Shown here: one piece after another, positions 400 to 10,091 of the stretch
How the letters are laid out: each line of letters opens with the position of its first letter
Position numbering within the stretch: the first letter of the stretch is position 1
Assembly (NCBI RefSeq): GCF_902859645.1
Contig: NZ_CADIJR010000012.1
Span: 1 to 64,000, forward strand
DNA from: Achromobacter insuavis
GTDB lineage: Bacteria > Pseudomonadota > Gammaproteobacteria > Burkholderiales > Burkholderiaceae_B
Direction: 5' to 3'
DNA length: 64,000 nt
Position numbers and translations under genes: made by a program
Notes under the pieces: generated by a model
What the model was told of the DNA's origin: nothing
Seen by the model: only the letters and a program-made list of their open reading frames with translations
The model's database searches: none

Positions 400-1074
400 A
401 TGACTACGCAAAATACTCCAGAGGATACCGCAAGCCAGCTACGCACGCGATTGCGGAAACTGCGTGCCGAATTGCCCGAAGACCAGCGCAGCCGCGGCGG
501 CCTGCTGATGCGCGCGCGCCTGTTCACCTGGCTCAACGTGGCCCGAGACGAAGCCGTCCGCGCCGGCCGGCCCGCCCCCCGCACCGTGGCCGCCTTCTGG
601 CCCATGGAAGACGAGCCCGACCTGCGTCCGTTGCTGGAGCAGTGGACGGAAAACGGTGTCACGGTGGCGTTGCCGGTGGTGCGTGAACGCAACGCGCCCC
701 TGGCCTTCCTGCCCTGGACGCCCGACGCCGAACTGCGCGCCGGCCCCTACGGCATCCAGGAACCGGTGCACGGCGCCGAAGTGCTGCCCGACGTGCTGCT
801 GGTGCCCACCCTGGGTTACACCGAATCCGCCGACCGCCTGGGCTATGGCGGCGGCTACTACGACCGCACCCTGGCGGCGCTGCGCGACCGCGGCCATGCC
901 TTCACCGCCATCGGCGTGGCCTGGAGCTGCGGCGAGCTGGATGCCGACTACGCGCCGGCCGCGCACGACTTCCGCCTGGACGCCGTCATCACTCCGGACG
1001 GCTGGGTGCCGCATGTGCCCAACGAGCAACCGGGCCCGGGCGGCACCACGCTGCACCACTACACCCTGCGCTGA
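400..1074 (+). CDS. ygfA: 5-formyltetrahydrofolate cyclo-ligase
   Basis: Converts 5-formyl-THF to 5,10-methenyl-THF with ATP, returning the storage folate to the one-carbon pool in the cytosol. The 224-residue protein carries the family's GYGGGYYDRTL signature near residue 150, plus a conserved C-terminal region (FRLDAVITPDGW). The ATG at 400 gives the normal family length; the open frame upstream (from 292) would add an unrelated arginine-rich leader made of the 12-bp repeat. In many proteobacteria 6S RNA lies next to this gene; I could not recognise it here. Confidence 0.9.
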   Translation: MTTQNTPEDTASQLRTRLRKLRAELPEDQRSRGGLLMRARLFTWLNVARDEAVRAGRPAPRTVAAFWPMEDEPDLRPLLEQWTENGVTVALPVVRERNAPLAFLPWTPDAELRAGPYGIQEPVHGAEVLPDVLLVPTLGYTESADRLGYGGGYYDRTLAALRDRGHAFTAIGVAWSCGELDADYAPAAHDFRLDAVITPDGWVPHVPNEQPGPGGTTLHHYTLR

Positions 1075-1092
1075 CGCACCAGTCTCGCCCAA

Positions 1093-1119
1093 GGGCTTGC
1101 ACCAAAACGGTGCAAGCCC
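1093..1119. promoter_or_regulatory. Perfect 11-bp dyad, NtrC-type site candidate
   Basis: GGGCTTGCACC and its exact complement GGTGCAAGCCC flank AAAAC. The core TGCACC-N5-GGTGCA matches the NtrC enhancer pattern. It lies 19 bp after ygfA and about 315 bp upstream of the predicted sigma-54 start. It could instead be the ygfA transcript end, but no T-run follows. Confidence 0.5.
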
Positions 1120-1394
1120 TATGATCTGCCCCTGATATTGCCGATTGCCGCCTCGCGCGGCGTCCCCCGCGGGCGACCCCCGCGTCGCCCGCGCGGCCCG
1201 TCCGCCCTGCCGTCGTCACCCCTCGCCGCCAGGATTCCGACCCGTTTCACCCCGGCGTTGCCGCCATTCACCCCCAAGCGGGGCCTGCCGTCCCGCTTGC
1301 GCCATCAAACCCGCCGTTCATCCGGAGGGTAGCCATCCGCCGCCGACGAGAGGATATTTACCTCCAGGGCGGCCCCCGCGCGCCCCAGCCCAAG
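1120..1394. other. Intergenic stretch before the sigma-54 promoter
   Basis: This GC-rich stretch lies between the dyad and the promoter of the ATP-grasp/Anbu operon. I see no coding frame with convincing codon use and no second NtrC-like dyad. The distance would allow looping by an enhancer-binding protein. Confidence 0.4.
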
Positions 1395-1411
1395 CTGGCA
1401 TGCGGGTTGCT
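1395..1411 (+). promoter_or_regulatory. Sigma-54 promoter
   Basis: CTGGCATGCGGGTTGCT matches 15 of 17 positions of the RpoN consensus YTGGCACGRNNNTTGCW, with the invariant GG (1397-1398) and GC (1409-1410) exactly 12 bp apart. Transcription would start near 1422, about 70 bp before the ATG at 1491. This excludes the longer frame opening at 1407. Confidence 0.65.
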
Positions 1412-1423
1412 TATTCAGTCAGA

Positions 1424-1442
1424 CCGGTCCTGCACGGACCGG
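1424..1442 (+). promoter_or_regulatory. Hairpin at the 5' end of the predicted mRNA
   Basis: CCGGTCC and GGACCGG pair perfectly around the loop TGCAC. If transcription starts near 1422, this hairpin forms the first 20 nucleotides of the message and could protect it from 5' decay. It has no T-run and does not look like a terminator. Confidence 0.45.
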
Positions 1443-1490
1443 ACAACGGCCGCGCCCAAGCCGGCCGTCAGCATCTGCAACGGAGGAGCC

Positions 1491-2921
1491 ATGAAGGACA
1501 GACCATCCCGTCCCGCCGCCTATGACGAAATGCGCGACAGCGCCGGCGGCATACGCTCCCATTACCAGGCCTTCGAGCGCTGGCACCAGGAGCAATCGGC
1601 GGAAGCCATGGCGGCGCGCCGCCTGGAGGCCGACCTGAGTTTCCGGCGGGTCGGCATCACCTTTTCGGTGGCCGGCGACGCCGCCGGCACCGAACGCCTG
1701 ATCCCGTTCGACATGATCCCGCGCATCATCCCCGCCGACGAGTGGCGCGGCCTGGAAGCCGGCCTGAAGCAGCGGGTGCGGGCGCTGAACATGTTCATCC
1801 ACGACATCTACCACGGCCATGACATCGTCCGCGCCGGCGTGGTGCCGGCCGAGCAGGTGTTCCTGAACGCCCAATACCGCCCCGAGATGCAGGACGTGGA
1901 TGTGGCCGAGGACATCTACTGCCACATCGCCGGCGTCGACATCGTGCGCGCCGGCGCCGGCGAGTTCTACGTGCTGGAGGACAACCTGCGGGTGCCGTCC
2001 GGCGTGTCGTACATGCTGGAGAACCGCAAGATGTCGATGCGCCTGATGCCCGCCGCGTTCAGCCGCATCAAGGTCGAGCCGGTGGCGCACTACCCCGACC
2101 TGCTGCTGGACAACCTGCGCGAAGTGGCGCCGCATGGCGGCGACGATCCCACCGTGGTGGTGCTGACGCCCGGCATGTACAACTCGGCCTACTTCGAGCA
2201 TGCCTTCCTGGCGCAGCAGATGGGCGTGGAGCTGGTGGAGGGCCAGGACCTGTTCGTCGAACAGAACACGGTGTACATGCGCACCACGCAGGGACCGCGC
2301 AAGGTCGACGTGATCTACCGCCGGCTGGATGACGACTTCCTCGATCCGCTGTCGTTCCGCGCCGATTCGGCGCTGGGCGTGCCGGGCCTGCTGTCGGTGT
2401 ACCGCGCCGGCCGCGTGACGCTGGCCAACGCCATCGGCACCGGCATTGCCGACGACAAGTCCACCTACCTCTACGTGCCGGACATGATCCGCTTCTACCT
2501 GGGCGAGGAGCCGATCCTGTCGAACGTGCCCACGTGGCGCTGCGGGCGGCCGGACGAGCTGTCGCACGTGCTGGCCAACATGCATGACCTGGTGGTCAAG
2601 GAAGTGCACGGCGCCGGCGGCTACGGCATGCTGGTCGGCCCGTCGGCCACCCGCGCCGAGGTCGAGGCGTTCAAGGACCGCGTGCGCGCCAACCCCGCCA
2701 ACTACATCGCGCAACCCACGCTGGCGCTGTCCACGGTGCCGACCTACGTCGAGTCGGGCGTGGCGCCGCGCCACGTCGACCTGCGCCCCTATGTGCTGTG
2801 CGGCAAGGACATCCGCACCGTGCCGGGCGGCCTGTGCCGCGTGGCGCTGACCGAGGGCTCGCTGGTGGTCAACAGCAGCCAGGGCGGCGGCACCAAGGAC
2901 ACCTGGGTTCTGGAGGAATAA
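1491..2921 (+). CDS. Circularly permuted ATP-grasp protein (COG2308)
   Basis: This 476-residue protein belongs to the permuted ATP-grasp family (old DUF404/DUF407), thought to ligate amino groups to carboxyl groups of peptides or amino acids using ATP. Visible features: an N-terminal QRVRALNMFIHDIY region, a central EDNLRVPSGVSYMLENR block typical of the family, and a C-terminal VKEVHGAGGYGMLVGP nucleotide-binding loop. A strong Shine-Dalgarno (CGGAGGAG, 1480-1487) sets the start. It is the first gene of an operon with an alpha-E protein, a transglutaminase and Anbu, a group known to occur together. The substrate is not known. The sigma-54 promoter upstream suggests control by nitrogen status. 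Confidence 0.85.
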   Translation: MKDRPSRPAAYDEMRDSAGGIRSHYQAFERWHQEQSAEAMAARRLEADLSFRRVGITFSVAGDAAGTERLIPFDMIPRIIPADEWRGLEAGLKQRVRALNMFIHDIYHGHDIVRAGVVPAEQVFLNAQYRPEMQDVDVAEDIYCHIAGVDIVRAGAGEFYVLEDNLRVPSGVSYMLENRKMSMRLMPAAFSRIKVEPVAHYPDLLLDNLREVAPHGGDDPTVVVLTPGMYNSAYFEHAFLAQQMGVELVEGQDLFVEQNTVYMRTTQGPRKVDVIYRRLDDDFLDPLSFRADSALGVPGLLSVYRAGRVTLANAIGTGIADDKSTYLYVPDMIRFYLGEEPILSNVPTWRCGRPDELSHVLANMHDLVVKEVHGAGGYGMLVGPSATRAEVEAFKDRVRANPANYIAQPTLALSTVPTYVESGVAPRHVDLRPYVLCGKDIRTVPGGLCRVALTEGSLVVNSSQGGGTKDTWVLEE

Positions 2922-2923
2922 CG

Positions 2924-3910
2924 ATGCTGAGCCGAACCGCCGACAACCTGTTCTGGATGTGCCGCTACACCGAGCGCGCCGAGAACACCGCCCGCATGCT
3001 GGACGTGAACCTGCAGATGTCGCTGCTGCCGCAGGACGCGCAGACGCGCGAAGGCTCGTGGAACGCCGTGCTGCGCATCTCCGAGCTGCAGCGGCTGTAT
3101 CACGCCAAGCACGCCGCGGTGTCGCCGCAGGATGTGCTGCAGTACATGGTGCGCGATGCCGAGAACCCCTCGTCCATCTACAGCTGCATGCGCGCCGCCC
3201 GCGAGAACGCCCGCGCCGTGCGCGGCAGCCTCACCACCGAAGTCTGGGAGACCTACAACACCACCTGGCTGGAGCTGCTCAAGCACCTGCACACCGGGCT
3301 GCTGGAACGCAACCCGGGCGAGTTCTTCGAGTGGGTCAAGTTCCGCTCGCACCTGGCGCGCGGCGTCACCATCGGCACCATGCTGGAAGACGAAGCGCTG
3401 TACTTCCTGCGCATCGGCATGCACCTGGAGCGCGCCGACAACACCGCGCGCATGCTGGATGTGAAGTTTCACGAACGCGATGGCGACGGCACGCCGCAAC
3501 AGCAGCAGGAAGGCCGCGGCGAGCAAGGCGCGTCCGGCTCGCTGCAAAGCGAGTTCTACCGCTGGTCGGCGCTGCTCAGTTCGATGTCCGGGCTGGAGAT
3601 CTACCGCAAGGTCTATCGCGACGTGATCACGCCCGACCGCGTGGCCGAGCTGCTGATCCTGCATCCGGACATGCCGCGTTCGCTGCTGGCGGCGATGCGC
3701 GCGGTGGCCGACGACCTTGCGCGCGTCTCGAACCAGCGCTCGACCGAGACCGAGCGGCGCGCCGGCATGCTGTGCGCCGAGCTGCAGTTCGGCCGCGTCG
3801 AGGACATCCTGCACAACGGCCTGCACCAGTACCTGGAACACTTCCTGGACCGCATCAACGACCTGGGCAACCGCATCAGCCAGGACTTCCTGGTGCCGCT
3901 GTCGGCATGA
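2924..3910 (+). CDS. Alpha-E domain protein (COG2307)
   Basis: 328 residues, all-helical alpha-E family. The start LSRTADNLFWMCRYTERAEN is the family signature, repeated in part near residue 165 (HLERADNTARML). The gene begins two bases after the ATP-grasp stop and shares its ribosome site TGGAGGAATAACG, so translation is probably coupled. Alpha-E proteins occur almost only beside permuted ATP-grasp and transglutaminase genes and are presumed partners in making or modifying a peptide; no catalytic residues are established. Residues 184-200 form a Gln/Gly-rich linker (GTPQQQQEGRGEQG) that may be variable. Confidence 0.85.
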   Translation: MLSRTADNLFWMCRYTERAENTARMLDVNLQMSLLPQDAQTREGSWNAVLRISELQRLYHAKHAAVSPQDVLQYMVRDAENPSSIYSCMRAARENARAVRGSLTTEVWETYNTTWLELLKHLHTGLLERNPGEFFEWVKFRSHLARGVTIGTMLEDEALYFLRIGMHLERADNTARMLDVKFHERDGDGTPQQQQEGRGEQGASGSLQSEFYRWSALLSSMSGLEIYRKVYRDVITPDRVAELLILHPDMPRSLLAAMRAVADDLARVSNQRSTETERRAGMLCAELQFGRVEDILHNGLHQYLEHFLDRINDLGNRISQDFLVPLSA

Positions 3911-3924
3911 CAAAGGAGACAGGC

Positions 3925-4728
3925 ATGAAACAGATCATCACGCACGTCACGCACTACCGCTACACCGCGCCCGTCACCTACAGCATCCAAACCCTGCGGC
4001 TGACGCCGCGCGACGACGAGCACCAGCGCGTGCTGCGCTGGCACATCGAGGCGCCCGGCGCGCTGGAGCAGCAGGTGGACGCCTACGGCAACATCACCCA
4101 CACGCTGACACTGAACCGTCCGCACACCGAGATCGAACTGCGCGTGGTCGGGCAGGTGCTGGTCGGCTCGCTCGCGCAGGGCGCGCTGGGCGGCGAGGAC
4201 AGCCGCCTGCCGGTGCACGCCTATTGCGTACAGACGCCGCTGACGCAGGCCGACGACACCATCCTGTCCTTCGCCCGCGACGTGCTGCCGGACGGCCTGA
4301 ACGCGCCGGCGGACGTACTGACGCTGGCCAGCGCCATCTACGACCGGGTGGCTTACGAGCCGGGCACCACCGACGTCACCACCGCCGCCGGCCAGGTGCT
4401 GGCGCTGGGCCATGGCGTCTGCCAGGACCATGCTCACCTGTTCCTGGCCTGCGTGCGCGGCCTGGGCGTGCCGGCCCGCTACGTCAGCGGCTACCTGTAC
4501 ACCACCGCCGAACACGCCGCCAGCCACGCCTGGGCCGACGTCTGGCTGCCGGGCGTCGGATGGACCAGCGTGGACGTCACCAATCGCCAATTCGCGTCCG
4601 ATTGTCACTGCCGCCTGGCGGTGGGGCGCGATTACGACTCGGCCTCGCCGGTGCGCGGCGTGCGCAGCGGCGGCGGCGACGAATCCATGGAGATCAGCGT
4701 GCAGGTCCAGACCGCCTCACAGCAATAA
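3925..4728 (+). CDS. Transglutaminase-like cysteine protease family protein
   Basis: 267 residues: an N-terminal beta domain (HYRYTAPVTYSIQTLRLTPR, the bacterial transglutaminase N-terminal region) and a C-terminal papain-like core. The catalytic triad is readable: Cys about residue 166 (GVCQDHAHL), His about 201 (SHAWADVWL) and Asp about 217 (SVDVTN). No signal peptide, so it acts in the cytosol. AAAGGAG lies 8 bases upstream of the ATG. In this operon it probably cleaves or cross-links the product of the ATP-grasp enzyme; whether it hydrolyses or transfers amides cannot be told from sequence. Confidence 0.88.
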   Translation: MKQIITHVTHYRYTAPVTYSIQTLRLTPRDDEHQRVLRWHIEAPGALEQQVDAYGNITHTLTLNRPHTEIELRVVGQVLVGSLAQGALGGEDSRLPVHAYCVQTPLTQADDTILSFARDVLPDGLNAPADVLTLASAIYDRVAYEPGTTDVTTAAGQVLALGHGVCQDHAHLFLACVRGLGVPARYVSGYLYTTAEHAASHAWADVWLPGVGWTSVDVTNRQFASDCHCRLAVGRDYDSASPVRGVRSGGGDESMEISVQVQTASQQ

Positions 4729-4743
4729 AACCCCGGCCGGCCG

Positions 4744-4771
4744 CGCCGCAATACAATTGCGGCGTGGTTTT
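4744..4771 (+). terminator. Hairpin with T-rich tail between transglutaminase and anbu
   Basis: CGCCGCAA and TTGCGGCG pair around TACAA (4744-4764), followed by a T-rich run up to TCCTATTTTT. It looks like an intrinsic terminator or attenuator inside the operon. The loop also holds TACAAT (4752-4757), so a -10 element for anbu overlapping the hairpin is an alternative; no good -35 is seen. Confidence 0.5.
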
Positions 4772-4786
4772 CCTATTTTTCCGATC

Positions 4787-5650
4787 ATGACCTACTGCGT
4801 AGCAGCCCGCCTCGATTCCGGCCTGGTGTTCCTGTCCGACTCCCGCACCAACGCCGGGGTCGACCAGATCAGCGTATTCCGCAAGATGACCGTCTTCGAG
4901 CGTCCGGGCGAGCGCATGATGGTGCTGATGACGTCCGGCAACCTGGCCGTCAGCCAGGCCGTGCTGAACGCGCTGGCGCGCCAGCACGACGAAGGCGGCG
5001 AAACCGTCTGGAACGCGCCCGACATGTTCGAGGCCACCCGCCGAGTCGGCGCCGCGGTGCGCGCGGTCTACCAGCGCGAGGCCGCGGCCCTGCACGAGCA
5101 GGGCGTGGACTTCAACGTCAGCCTGATCTTCGGCGGCCAGATCGGCGCCGAGCGCTGCCGCCTGTTCCAGGTGTATTCGGCCGGCAACTTCATCGAGGCC
5201 GGCTCCGAATGCCCGTACTTCCAGATCGGCGAGGCCAAGTACGGCAAGCCCATCCTGGATCGCGTGCTGCGCCCGGACACCACGCTGGACGAGGCCGCCA
5301 AGTGCGCGCTGATCTCGATGGACTCGACGCTGCGCTCGAACATCTCGGTCGGCCTGCCGCTGGACCTGCTGGTGTACGACACCAACGCGCTGCGCGTCAC
5401 GCACTTCGCCAGCATCGACGAGCACAACGAGTATTTCCGCATGATCCGCGGCACCTGGGGCGAACGCCTGCGCCAGGTCTTCGCCGAGATCCCCGACCCG
5501 CTCTGGGCCAGCCCCGAGGACCCCGCCTCGCTGGTCCCCGCCAGCCGCGTCCACCAGCCCCTGCGCGCCGAACCCGTGGACGTGCCGCAGGCGGTCTATC
5601 CCGCGCCGCAGGTGCTGGCGGAGGATCCGGGGAAGGATCAGCCGAACTAG
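4787..5650 (+). CDS. Anbu, proteasome-like (ancestral beta-subunit) peptidase
   Basis: 287-residue Ntn-hydrolase of the Anbu family, a self-assembling relative of HslV and the 20S proteasome beta subunit. After removal of Met1 the chain begins TYCVAARLDSGLVFLSDSRT, exposing Thr1 as nucleophile; Asp17 (FLSDSR) and Lys32 (VFRKM) complete the proteasome-type active site. It lies 58 bp after the transglutaminase gene. The longer open frame upstream overlaps that gene and is rejected. Anbu is commonly encoded with ATP-grasp, alpha-E and transglutaminase genes, as here. The C-terminal 35 residues are Pro/Ala-rich and look disordered. Its native substrate and any partner ATPase are unknown. Confidence 0.88.
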   Translation: MTYCVAARLDSGLVFLSDSRTNAGVDQISVFRKMTVFERPGERMMVLMTSGNLAVSQAVLNALARQHDEGGETVWNAPDMFEATRRVGAAVRAVYQREAAALHEQGVDFNVSLIFGGQIGAERCRLFQVYSAGNFIEAGSECPYFQIGEAKYGKPILDRVLRPDTTLDEAAKCALISMDSTLRSNISVGLPLDLLVYDTNALRVTHFASIDEHNEYFRMIRGTWGERLRQVFAEIPDPLWASPEDPASLVPASRVHQPLRAEPVDVPQAVYPAPQVLAEDPGKDQPN

Positions 5651-5815
5651 GGAATAGGGGCGCAGGACCCGTCCCACCGTATAAACCCGGCTTTCCCCTT
5701 CCCTAAGCCCGGCTTGTAAAACCGCAAATTCTCATCTTCCGGCTGGCGCGCCACACTGGCGCCAGCCCGCCATGCCTTGCCTTGCGGGTTGCGATAACAC
5801 CGATAAGGACGAGAC

Positions 5816-6814
5816 ATGACCCCTATTTTCCCGCGCGCCTGGCGGCGCCTGGCCGGGCCGTTGCTGGCCCTGGGCTGCCTGGCCGGCGGTCCCGCCGCGG
5901 CCCAGAGCAGCTATCCCAACCACCCCATTTCGCTGGTCGTGCCGTTCGCGGCGGGCGGTCCCACCGACGTGGTGGCGCGCAGCCTGGGCGCCGCCATGTC
6001 GAAGACGCTGGGCCAGAGCATCGTGGTCGAGAACCGTCCCGGCGCGGGCGGCACGCTGGCGGCCACGCACGTGGCGCGCGCCGCGCCCGACGGCTATACC
6101 TTCCTGATCCACCACAACGGCATGGCCACGGCGCCGGCGCTATACCGCAAGCTGCCGTTCAATCCGTTGACCGATTTCACCTATGTCGGCCAGGTGGCGG
6201 ACGTGCCCATGACGCTGTTGGGCCGCAAGGACCTGCCGCCGGGCGACATGGTCGAATTCATCAAGTACGCGCGCGCCAACGGCAACAAGATCAACCTGGC
6301 CAACGCCGGGCTGGGCGCGGTGTCGCAGCTGTGCGGCATGCTGCTGCAGGAGGCGCTGGGCACGCAATTCACGACCATTCCGTATGCCGGCACCGCGCCC
6401 GCGCTGACTGCGCTGCTGGGCGGCCAGGTGGATGTGCTGTGCGACCAGACCACCCAGACCATTCCGCATATCAAGGCGCAGCGCGTGAAGCTCTATGGCG
6501 TCACCACGCTGGACCGCATCAAGACCTTGCCGGATGCGCCGACCCTGCAGGAGAACGGCCTGAAAGGCTTCGAGGTCAAGGTCTGGCACGGCGTATATGG
6601 CCCCAAGGGCACGCCGCCCGAGGTGATCGCCAAGTTCAACGAGGCCTTGCGCGCGGCGCTGAAAGACCCGGCATTCACGCAGAAAATGGCCGAACTGGGC
6701 GCCGAGATCGTGCCTGAATCCAAGCAGACGCCTGCGGGGCTGCAGAGCTGGCTGCAGTCCGAAGTGGACAAGTGGGGCCCGGTCATCCGCAAGGCCGGGG
6801 TGTACGCGGACTGA
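5816..6814 (+). CDS. Bug-family tripartite tricarboxylate transporter substrate-binding protein
   Basis: 332 residues with a signal peptide (RLAGPLLALGCLAGGPAAAQ) and the Bug-family start of the mature chain (YPNHPISLVVPFAAGGPTDV). Bug proteins are periplasmic receptors, greatly expanded in Bordetella and relatives, that bind carboxylates, amino acids or nicotinate-like compounds. AAGGA precedes the ATG by about 8 bases. No TctA/TctB membrane genes are nearby, so it is an orphan receptor, as is usual for this family; the ligand cannot be predicted. Confidence 0.88.
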   Translation: MTPIFPRAWRRLAGPLLALGCLAGGPAAAQSSYPNHPISLVVPFAAGGPTDVVARSLGAAMSKTLGQSIVVENRPGAGGTLAATHVARAAPDGYTFLIHHNGMATAPALYRKLPFNPLTDFTYVGQVADVPMTLLGRKDLPPGDMVEFIKYARANGNKINLANAGLGAVSQLCGMLLQEALGTQFTTIPYAGTAPALTALLGGQVDVLCDQTTQTIPHIKAQRVKLYGVTTLDRIKTLPDAPTLQENGLKGFEVKVWHGVYGPKGTPPEVIAKFNEALRAALKDPAFTQKMAELGAEIVPESKQTPAGLQSWLQSEVDKWGPVIRKAGVYAD

Positions 6815-9835: not shown

Positions 9836-9940
9836 GGTGTTGTAGGCTCCACGTGAAAAACGAACGGCGCACGATACGGCCGGACAACGCGAAACCACCA
9901 CGACAATCGAGTGCTCGCCTTTTCCGCCATACGCGACAAA

Positions 9941-10082
9941 GGTGAGCGCCGTTGCTGTAACGCCGCGCATGGCGCGACGTTTGAACAAGGATTCCTGAGC
10001 CTGGCGAACCGGGTTCCGCGGGTCATGGGCCAGGGCATGGTCCATGACGGGAACCGCAGGGTCGTCGCAGCGCTCCTCAGGA
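9941..10082 (-). ncRNA. SAH riboswitch in the ahcY leader
   Basis: On the minus strand the conserved pieces appear in order: TGAGGAGCGCTGCGACG, then a variable hairpin (GTCATGG paired with CCATGAC, inside GGTTCC/GGAACC), then CGCCAGGCTCAGG closing the first stem, and finally CAACGGCGCTCACC. The last piece pairs with the GAGCGC part as the pseudoknot. It ends about 105 bases before the ahcY ATG. This class binds S-adenosylhomocysteine and switches ahcY on. Confidence 0.9.
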
Positions 10083-10091
10083 TTGCCGAGC

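Follow-up and report, generated by a model that had tools for sequence, protein, structure and literature searches.

The Anbu-type gene cluster, as described by Valas and Bourne (2008) and Iyer et al. (2009; both as cited in PMC5666114 and PMC6376114), consists of genes for an ATP-grasp protein, an alpha-E protein, a transglutaminase and Anbu (ancestral beta subunit), the last carrying Thr1, Asp17 and Lys32. The same four genes in the same order are present in a 64,000-nucleotide stretch of Achromobacter insuavis DNA (hereafter the window, meaning the whole stretch analysed; Table 1), and to the described cluster the present analysis adds a dissection of its regulation, with a pair of NtrC- and sigma-54-type sites before the core genes and a separate -10-like box at Anbu. 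In Burkholderia cenocepacia H111, where ATP-grasp, alpha-E and transglutaminase genes are likewise under NtrC and sigma-54, an ntrC mutant at low ammonium had I35_5080 to I35_5083 at log2 values of -8.2, -9.4, -9.4 and -6.0 (PMC5491218). I35_5080 encodes a DUF404/407 (ATP-grasp) protein, I35_5081 a DUF403 (alpha-E) protein and I35_5082 and I35_5083 transglutaminase-like proteins, and all four genes are listed as common targets of sigma-54 and NtrC in a study in which 95% of the top 150 genes were also under sigma-54. That cluster differs in its fourth gene, which encodes a large transglutaminase protein and not Anbu; no gene is named Anbu or proteasome in Table 1 of the paper, and its available parts hold no dyad or conservation analysis of the cluster. 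Anbu has likewise been linked to nitrogen shortage, as it is raised in nitrogen-limited Pseudomonas putida (Hervas et al. 2008, as cited in PMC5666114 and PMC6376114), the ideas raised being an increased turnover of proteins, tagging, or a transglutaminase that releases ammonia. Among the matches listed in a literature search, which covered few subscription papers and is not proof of absence, no text contained both words Anbu and NtrC and none was by title or abstract a promoter analysis of the cluster.

The first three genes of the cluster in the window are very probably controlled by NtrC and sigma-54, and the account as a whole, a nitrogen-starvation switch on the biosynthetic arm of a known Anbu-type cluster in which Anbu is started separately, is likely. 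The sigma-54 promoter (TGGCATGCGGGTTGCTT) has GG-N10-GC with exact spacing and agrees with the TGGCAC/TTGC consensus at 12 of 13 scored positions, which places the predicted transcription start near 1422, and two rpoN genes in the genome score over the cut-off. A preliminary description of the window had reported the same site at 15 of 17 positions; the spacing and the start hold, while the count was not reproduced, the 17 positions being unspecified. The perfect TGCACC-N5-GGTGCA dyad that it had placed about 315 bp upstream is there, centred approximately 316 bp before 1422 and embedded in a 12-bp perfect inverted repeat.

Conservation was scored upstream of the ATP-grasp gene, with cut-offs of at least 11/13 within 165 bp for the sigma-54 site and at least 10/12 within 400 bp for the dyad, and with the start codons of relatives assigned by script. 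Loci were drawn from genomes of the family (121, of which 40 match the ATP-grasp protein at E 0.001), the order (300, 150 matching at E 1e-150) and the class (369, 103 matching at E 1e-130), and from a scan of named genomes in which 80 loci were kept of at least 595 and in which the nearest relatives were Achromobacter species (ATP-grasp 97% identical); the sets overlap and the matches were fetched in part. After removal of three duplicates (L210/L082, L055/L237 and L063/L107), of L129 as too short and of the fragmentary family matches G012 and G051, the set comprised 43 Alcaligenaceae loci and 117 others, mostly Burkholderiales. The sigma-54 site was found in 32 of the 43 Alcaligenaceae loci (antisense, 3/43; shuffles, 4/860) and 53 of the 117 others (antisense, 1/117; shuffles, 13/2340), the dyad in 28/43 (shuffles, 25/860) and 53/117 (shuffles, 84/2340), and dyads with altered spacers (N3, N4, N6 and N7) reached the cut-off in 1–3 of the 43 and 3–7 of the 117. 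The preliminary description had proposed to look for both sites in related genomes, where they prove to be kept together well above controls (21/43 and 26/117, against 0/860 and 0/2340 shuffles), including all ten Achromobacter loci examined (window, L199-L203, L079-L081 and L084). Counts under slightly different limits agree with this picture. Among the 27 best-scoring loci from the 103 matching genomes of the wider class, the order's own genomes left out, ten had a sigma-54 site (antisense, 0/27); this is the count used for the class, since a further sample of 20 loci had been chosen with their promoters already known and its sigma-54 count is therefore biased.

Two further dyad arrangements were observed. 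At six loci (L127, L131, L132, L135, L138 and L150), two of them named Polynucleobacter, a dyad of the TGCACY-N5-RGTGCA type stands at a fixed position near -80 before the ATP-grasp gene, with no sigma-54 site by the cut-off above, and may represent a different use of this site. At L224-L226 and L101, where no Anbu was found and no sigma-54 site was recognised, a repeated dyad of the TGCACGAAAGCGGTGCA type lies at approximately -128 before the ATP-grasp gene, preceded by CTGGCA.

The host's own nitrogen genes carry the same arrangement. Within one mismatch, the dyad occurs at 36 places in the 6.82-Mb genome (reversed control, 8), three of them perfect. Five of 17 strict sigma-54 sites, a set that excludes the cluster's own promoter with its one departure from the strict pattern, have a dyad with at most one mismatch 42–102 bp upstream, where arithmetic predicts about 0.01. 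One of these five pairs precedes glnA (TIGR00653), followed by ntrB and an ntrC that scores 668.7 bits (cut-off, 558.6) with its neighbours in frame; a second precedes nirB (TIGR02374); and the remaining three precede genes for an SBP_bac_3 amino-acid-type binding protein, an NMT1/SsuA-type binding protein and a small ABM-domain protein, so that uptake or assimilation genes stand behind four of the five. The cluster therefore has a dyad and promoter of the kind found at the host's own glnA. Given the conserved sites, the same pair at glnA-ntrBC and nirB, and the fall of log2 8.2–9.4 in the B. cenocepacia homologues (PMC5491218), the nitrogen control through RpoN and NtrC proposed in the preliminary description is well supported, and with the B. 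cenocepacia precedent it is not new in kind.

It could instead be that the sigma-54 promoter is real and answers to another enhancer-binding protein, the dyad being a terminator or an unrelated repeat of the 5-formyltetrahydrofolate cyclo-ligase gene that precedes it. In favour of this are the position of the dyad immediately behind that gene, its stable fold (-25 kcal/mol, z -5.0) and the long arms also seen in L203 (14 bp) and L200 (10 bp). Two further perfect dyads of the genome have no sigma-54 neighbour, and several NtrC-like proteins are encoded along with a second rpoN. Against this, no T run follows the dyad, and in most relatives its core is retained but the outer arms are not, even at loci with no cyclo-ligase gene found upstream, which points to a DNA-binding site rather than to an RNA hairpin; on these grounds the terminator was set aside. 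The rarity of altered spacers, the comparable pair of sites at glnA and the ntrC dependence in B. cenocepacia (PMC5491218) likewise make this alternative highly improbable. The second rpoN adjoins two genes for NtrC-like enhancer-binding proteins (C111 of the same genome, 2711-6632), away from the glnA-ntrBC locus. One of the other perfect dyads, at 2572-2588 of L198, lies just beyond the end of ompA (NF045787), and such dyads are thus not always NtrC sites.

The promoter appears to belong to the core genes and not to Anbu. A sigma-54 site of at least 11/13 preceded 27 of 29 Anbu-bearing Alcaligenaceae clusters versus 5 of 14 in which no Anbu was found, and 24 of 59 Anbu-bearing clusters versus 22 of 37 with none found among the others scored for gene content; "none found" refers to the stretch read, and where this covers 5 kb or more from the start of the ATP-grasp gene, the counts for clusters with none found become 4/11 and 22/35. 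Overall, 27 of 51 clusters with no Anbu found carry the promoter; the idea that the nitrogen signal is aimed at Anbu was therefore set aside, and the earlier attribution of that signal to the Anbu system as such is not supported. Two transglutaminase-DUF2126 amidoligase clusters (L133 and L139) share the ATP-grasp gene and a sigma-54-type promoter (12/13 and 11/13), and differ in that the DUF2126 amidoligase is fused to the transglutaminase and no Anbu was found in the stretch read. A third locus scanned encodes a fused ATP-grasp/alpha-E paralogue.

Anbu itself may be transcribed from a start of its own. Across 69 four-gene loci, the median intergenic gaps are 2, 13 and 75 bp, and in 59 of these loci the widest gap is the one preceding Anbu. 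At 25–60 bp upstream of Anbu, 24 of 29 Alcaligenaceae (shuffles, 9/580, 2%) and 26 of 59 others (shuffles, 62/1180, 5%) have a TANAAT box, compared with 0/44 and 0/76 before the alpha-E gene, 0/35 and 0/56 before the transglutaminase gene and 2/44 and 0/77 before the ATP-grasp gene. The box was recognised solely by comparing relatives, and a sigma-70 scan of positions 1000-6000 found none. In Achromobacter it is part of a palindrome whose fold is a terminator-like hairpin, and of 30 Alcaligenaceae gaps seven contain a similar one (shuffles, 0.8%); some other families have different stems in front of Anbu (e.g., L096 and L108). From this comparison, a separate and probably constitutive start of Anbu is, on balance, probable in the Alcaligenaceae and suggested in some neighbours, and expression of Anbu has been described as constitutive and moderate (PMC5666114).

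These observations bear on the form in which the cluster was first interpreted, as a single sigma-54/NtrC operon, Anbu included, that is induced by nitrogen limitation and makes or recycles a nitrogen-rich peptide. The four genes do share strand and order, the promoter is conserved, and the P. putida report (cited in PMC5666114 and PMC6376114) has Anbu responding to nitrogen limitation. The -10-like box, the larger gap, the hairpin in Achromobacter and the occurrence of the promoter before clusters with no Anbu found speak against one four-gene unit, which is accordingly unlikely, and the nitrogen-rich peptide is unsupported.

Alternatively, TACAAT and the hairpin could together form an RNA element in a single transcript, serving as a terminator or in the control of processing or translation, as the strong hairpin with its T-rich tail in Achromobacter and the missing -35 box might suggest. 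The box is kept, however, as TACAAT, TAGAAT or TAAAAT, with 48 of the 50 found lying at -43 to -32, also in lineages without the hairpin, and a box kept in position where there is no hairpin is expected of a -10 box and not of a stem. An RNA element is thus unlikely, and a separate Anbu start is preferred.

Several observations weigh against the combination of an NtrC-controlled core and a separately started Anbu. The induction in P. putida suggests that the insulation of Anbu does not hold in every case, gene expression was otherwise unchanged under various conditions (PMC5666114), and the Anbu proteins tested in PMC6376114 had no activity on the substrates used. The 281 bp between dyad and promoter is the longest gap of the ten Achromobacter loci (75–201 in the other nine). 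No sigma-54 site at the cut-off was present in 11 of 43 Alcaligenaceae loci (L209, L222-L229, L231 and L235) and 64 of 117 others, and neither of the two further perfect dyads of the genome (L197 and L198) had one of at least 12/13 in the stretches read (5.0 and 5.5 kb), so that a dyad alone is not proof of NtrC control. At 16–18 bp from the Anbu box, a -35 box was found no better than in the control, and the label of promoter therefore stays tentative; the box was present in just one of six Anbu genes outside the Burkholderiales and one of 11 in a second order sample (20 loci, two of which, G168 and G211, had been inspected earlier). Within the Alcaligenaceae the hairpin was found in Achromobacter only, and a cruder terminator pattern scan returned this one site in 5 kb versus 1.9 expected from shuffles. 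Most of the named genera that we take to belong to the Oxalobacteraceae are among the loci without the sigma-54 site.

Table 1. Features of the Anbu-type cluster and its surroundings, in window coordinates.
Feature	Position	Strand	Details
5-formyltetrahydrofolate cyclo-ligase gene	directly upstream of cluster and dyad		TIGR02727
Putative NtrC-type enhancer	1092-1120		12-bp perfect inverted repeat; core TGCACC-AAAAC-GGTGCA at 1098-1114
Sigma-54 promoter	1396-1412	+	GG 1397-1398; GC 1409-1410
ATP-grasp protein, circularly permuted	1491-2921	+	476 aa; PF14403 (9e-169)/PF04174
Alpha-E protein	2924-3910	+	328 aa; 2 bp after ATP-grasp; PF04168 (8e-97)
Transglutaminase-like protein	3925-4728	+	267 aa; 14 bp after alpha-E; PF08379 and PF01841
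Terminator-like hairpin, T-rich tail	4739-4769	+	between transglutaminase and Anbu; 14 pairs; -26.1 kcal/mol, z -3.5
TACAAT, putative -10 box of Anbu	4752-4757	+	within the hairpin
Anbu	4787-5650	+	287 aa; five PDB sequences, best 5loy (2e-95)
Anbu C-terminal extension	5507-5650		past the region matched in solved structures
SAH riboswitch	9937-10084	-	RF01057; 47.3 bits (cut-off 37)

The identity of the cluster given in the preliminary description is borne out, with ATP-grasp, alpha-E and transglutaminase genes over the Pfam cut-offs in order before an Anbu that aligns to solved structures. Translation and alignment to 5loy show that Anbu keeps Thr1, Asp17 and Lys32 (mature numbering; residue numbers Thr1, Asp17 and Lys32(33) follow PMC6376114), and its C-terminal extension is 47 residues long. 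For the ATP-grasp protein, a structure has been solved of a homologue (3n6x) matching residues 9-475, and the alpha-E protein has no solved relative by sequence at E 0.1. An Rfam search of the window returned a single match, outside the cluster, the SAH riboswitch, which precedes a gene for adenosylhomocysteinase (TIGR00936, above its cut-off).

For the preferred combination of a switched core and a separately started Anbu, the following course of events can be proposed. At low ammonium, phosphorylated NtrC would bind the dyad core and, looping over approximately 280 bp, activate the sigma-54 polymerase at the promoter, yielding one mRNA for the ATP-grasp, alpha-E and transglutaminase proteins. 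Anbu would be transcribed from its own sigma-70-type start at TACAAT, such that some Anbu is always present, and the hairpin before it may let the sigma-54 transcript read through in part only. The ATP-grasp/alpha-E pair might activate a carboxyl group and form an amide or isopeptide bond, the transglutaminase might exchange or release side-chain amides, and Anbu might trim or undo the product, in what would be a scavenging or remodelling route in nitrogen shortage. The best reading, though an uncertain one, is of an amide-ligating arm induced by starvation, alongside an Anbu that acts as a standing hydrolase. ATP-grasp enzymes make amide bonds via acyl phosphates (PMC6376114), and a starvation-induced ligase arm therefore fits the scavenging or remodelling of amide nitrogen; this is a better fit than storage because the company in the regulon is uptake and assimilation genes (also in PMC5491218), and we put it forward as a tentative possibility. 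A bolder reading, less likely than not, is that the cluster joins two regulons in one, starvation inducing the conjugating arm only and Anbu, from its own promoter, acting as a standing deconjugase.

The conserved NtrC/sigma-54 switch upstream of the core indicates under which condition the product of the cluster should be sought, and the probable separate start of Anbu suggests that Anbu be studied apart from the ligase arm. If the reading as two regulons were true, nitrogen status would set the balance between tagging and untagging, in a bacterial counterpart to the ligase and hydrolase of protein tagging. The poorly understood Anbu gene cluster gains a testable role in nitrogen shortage.

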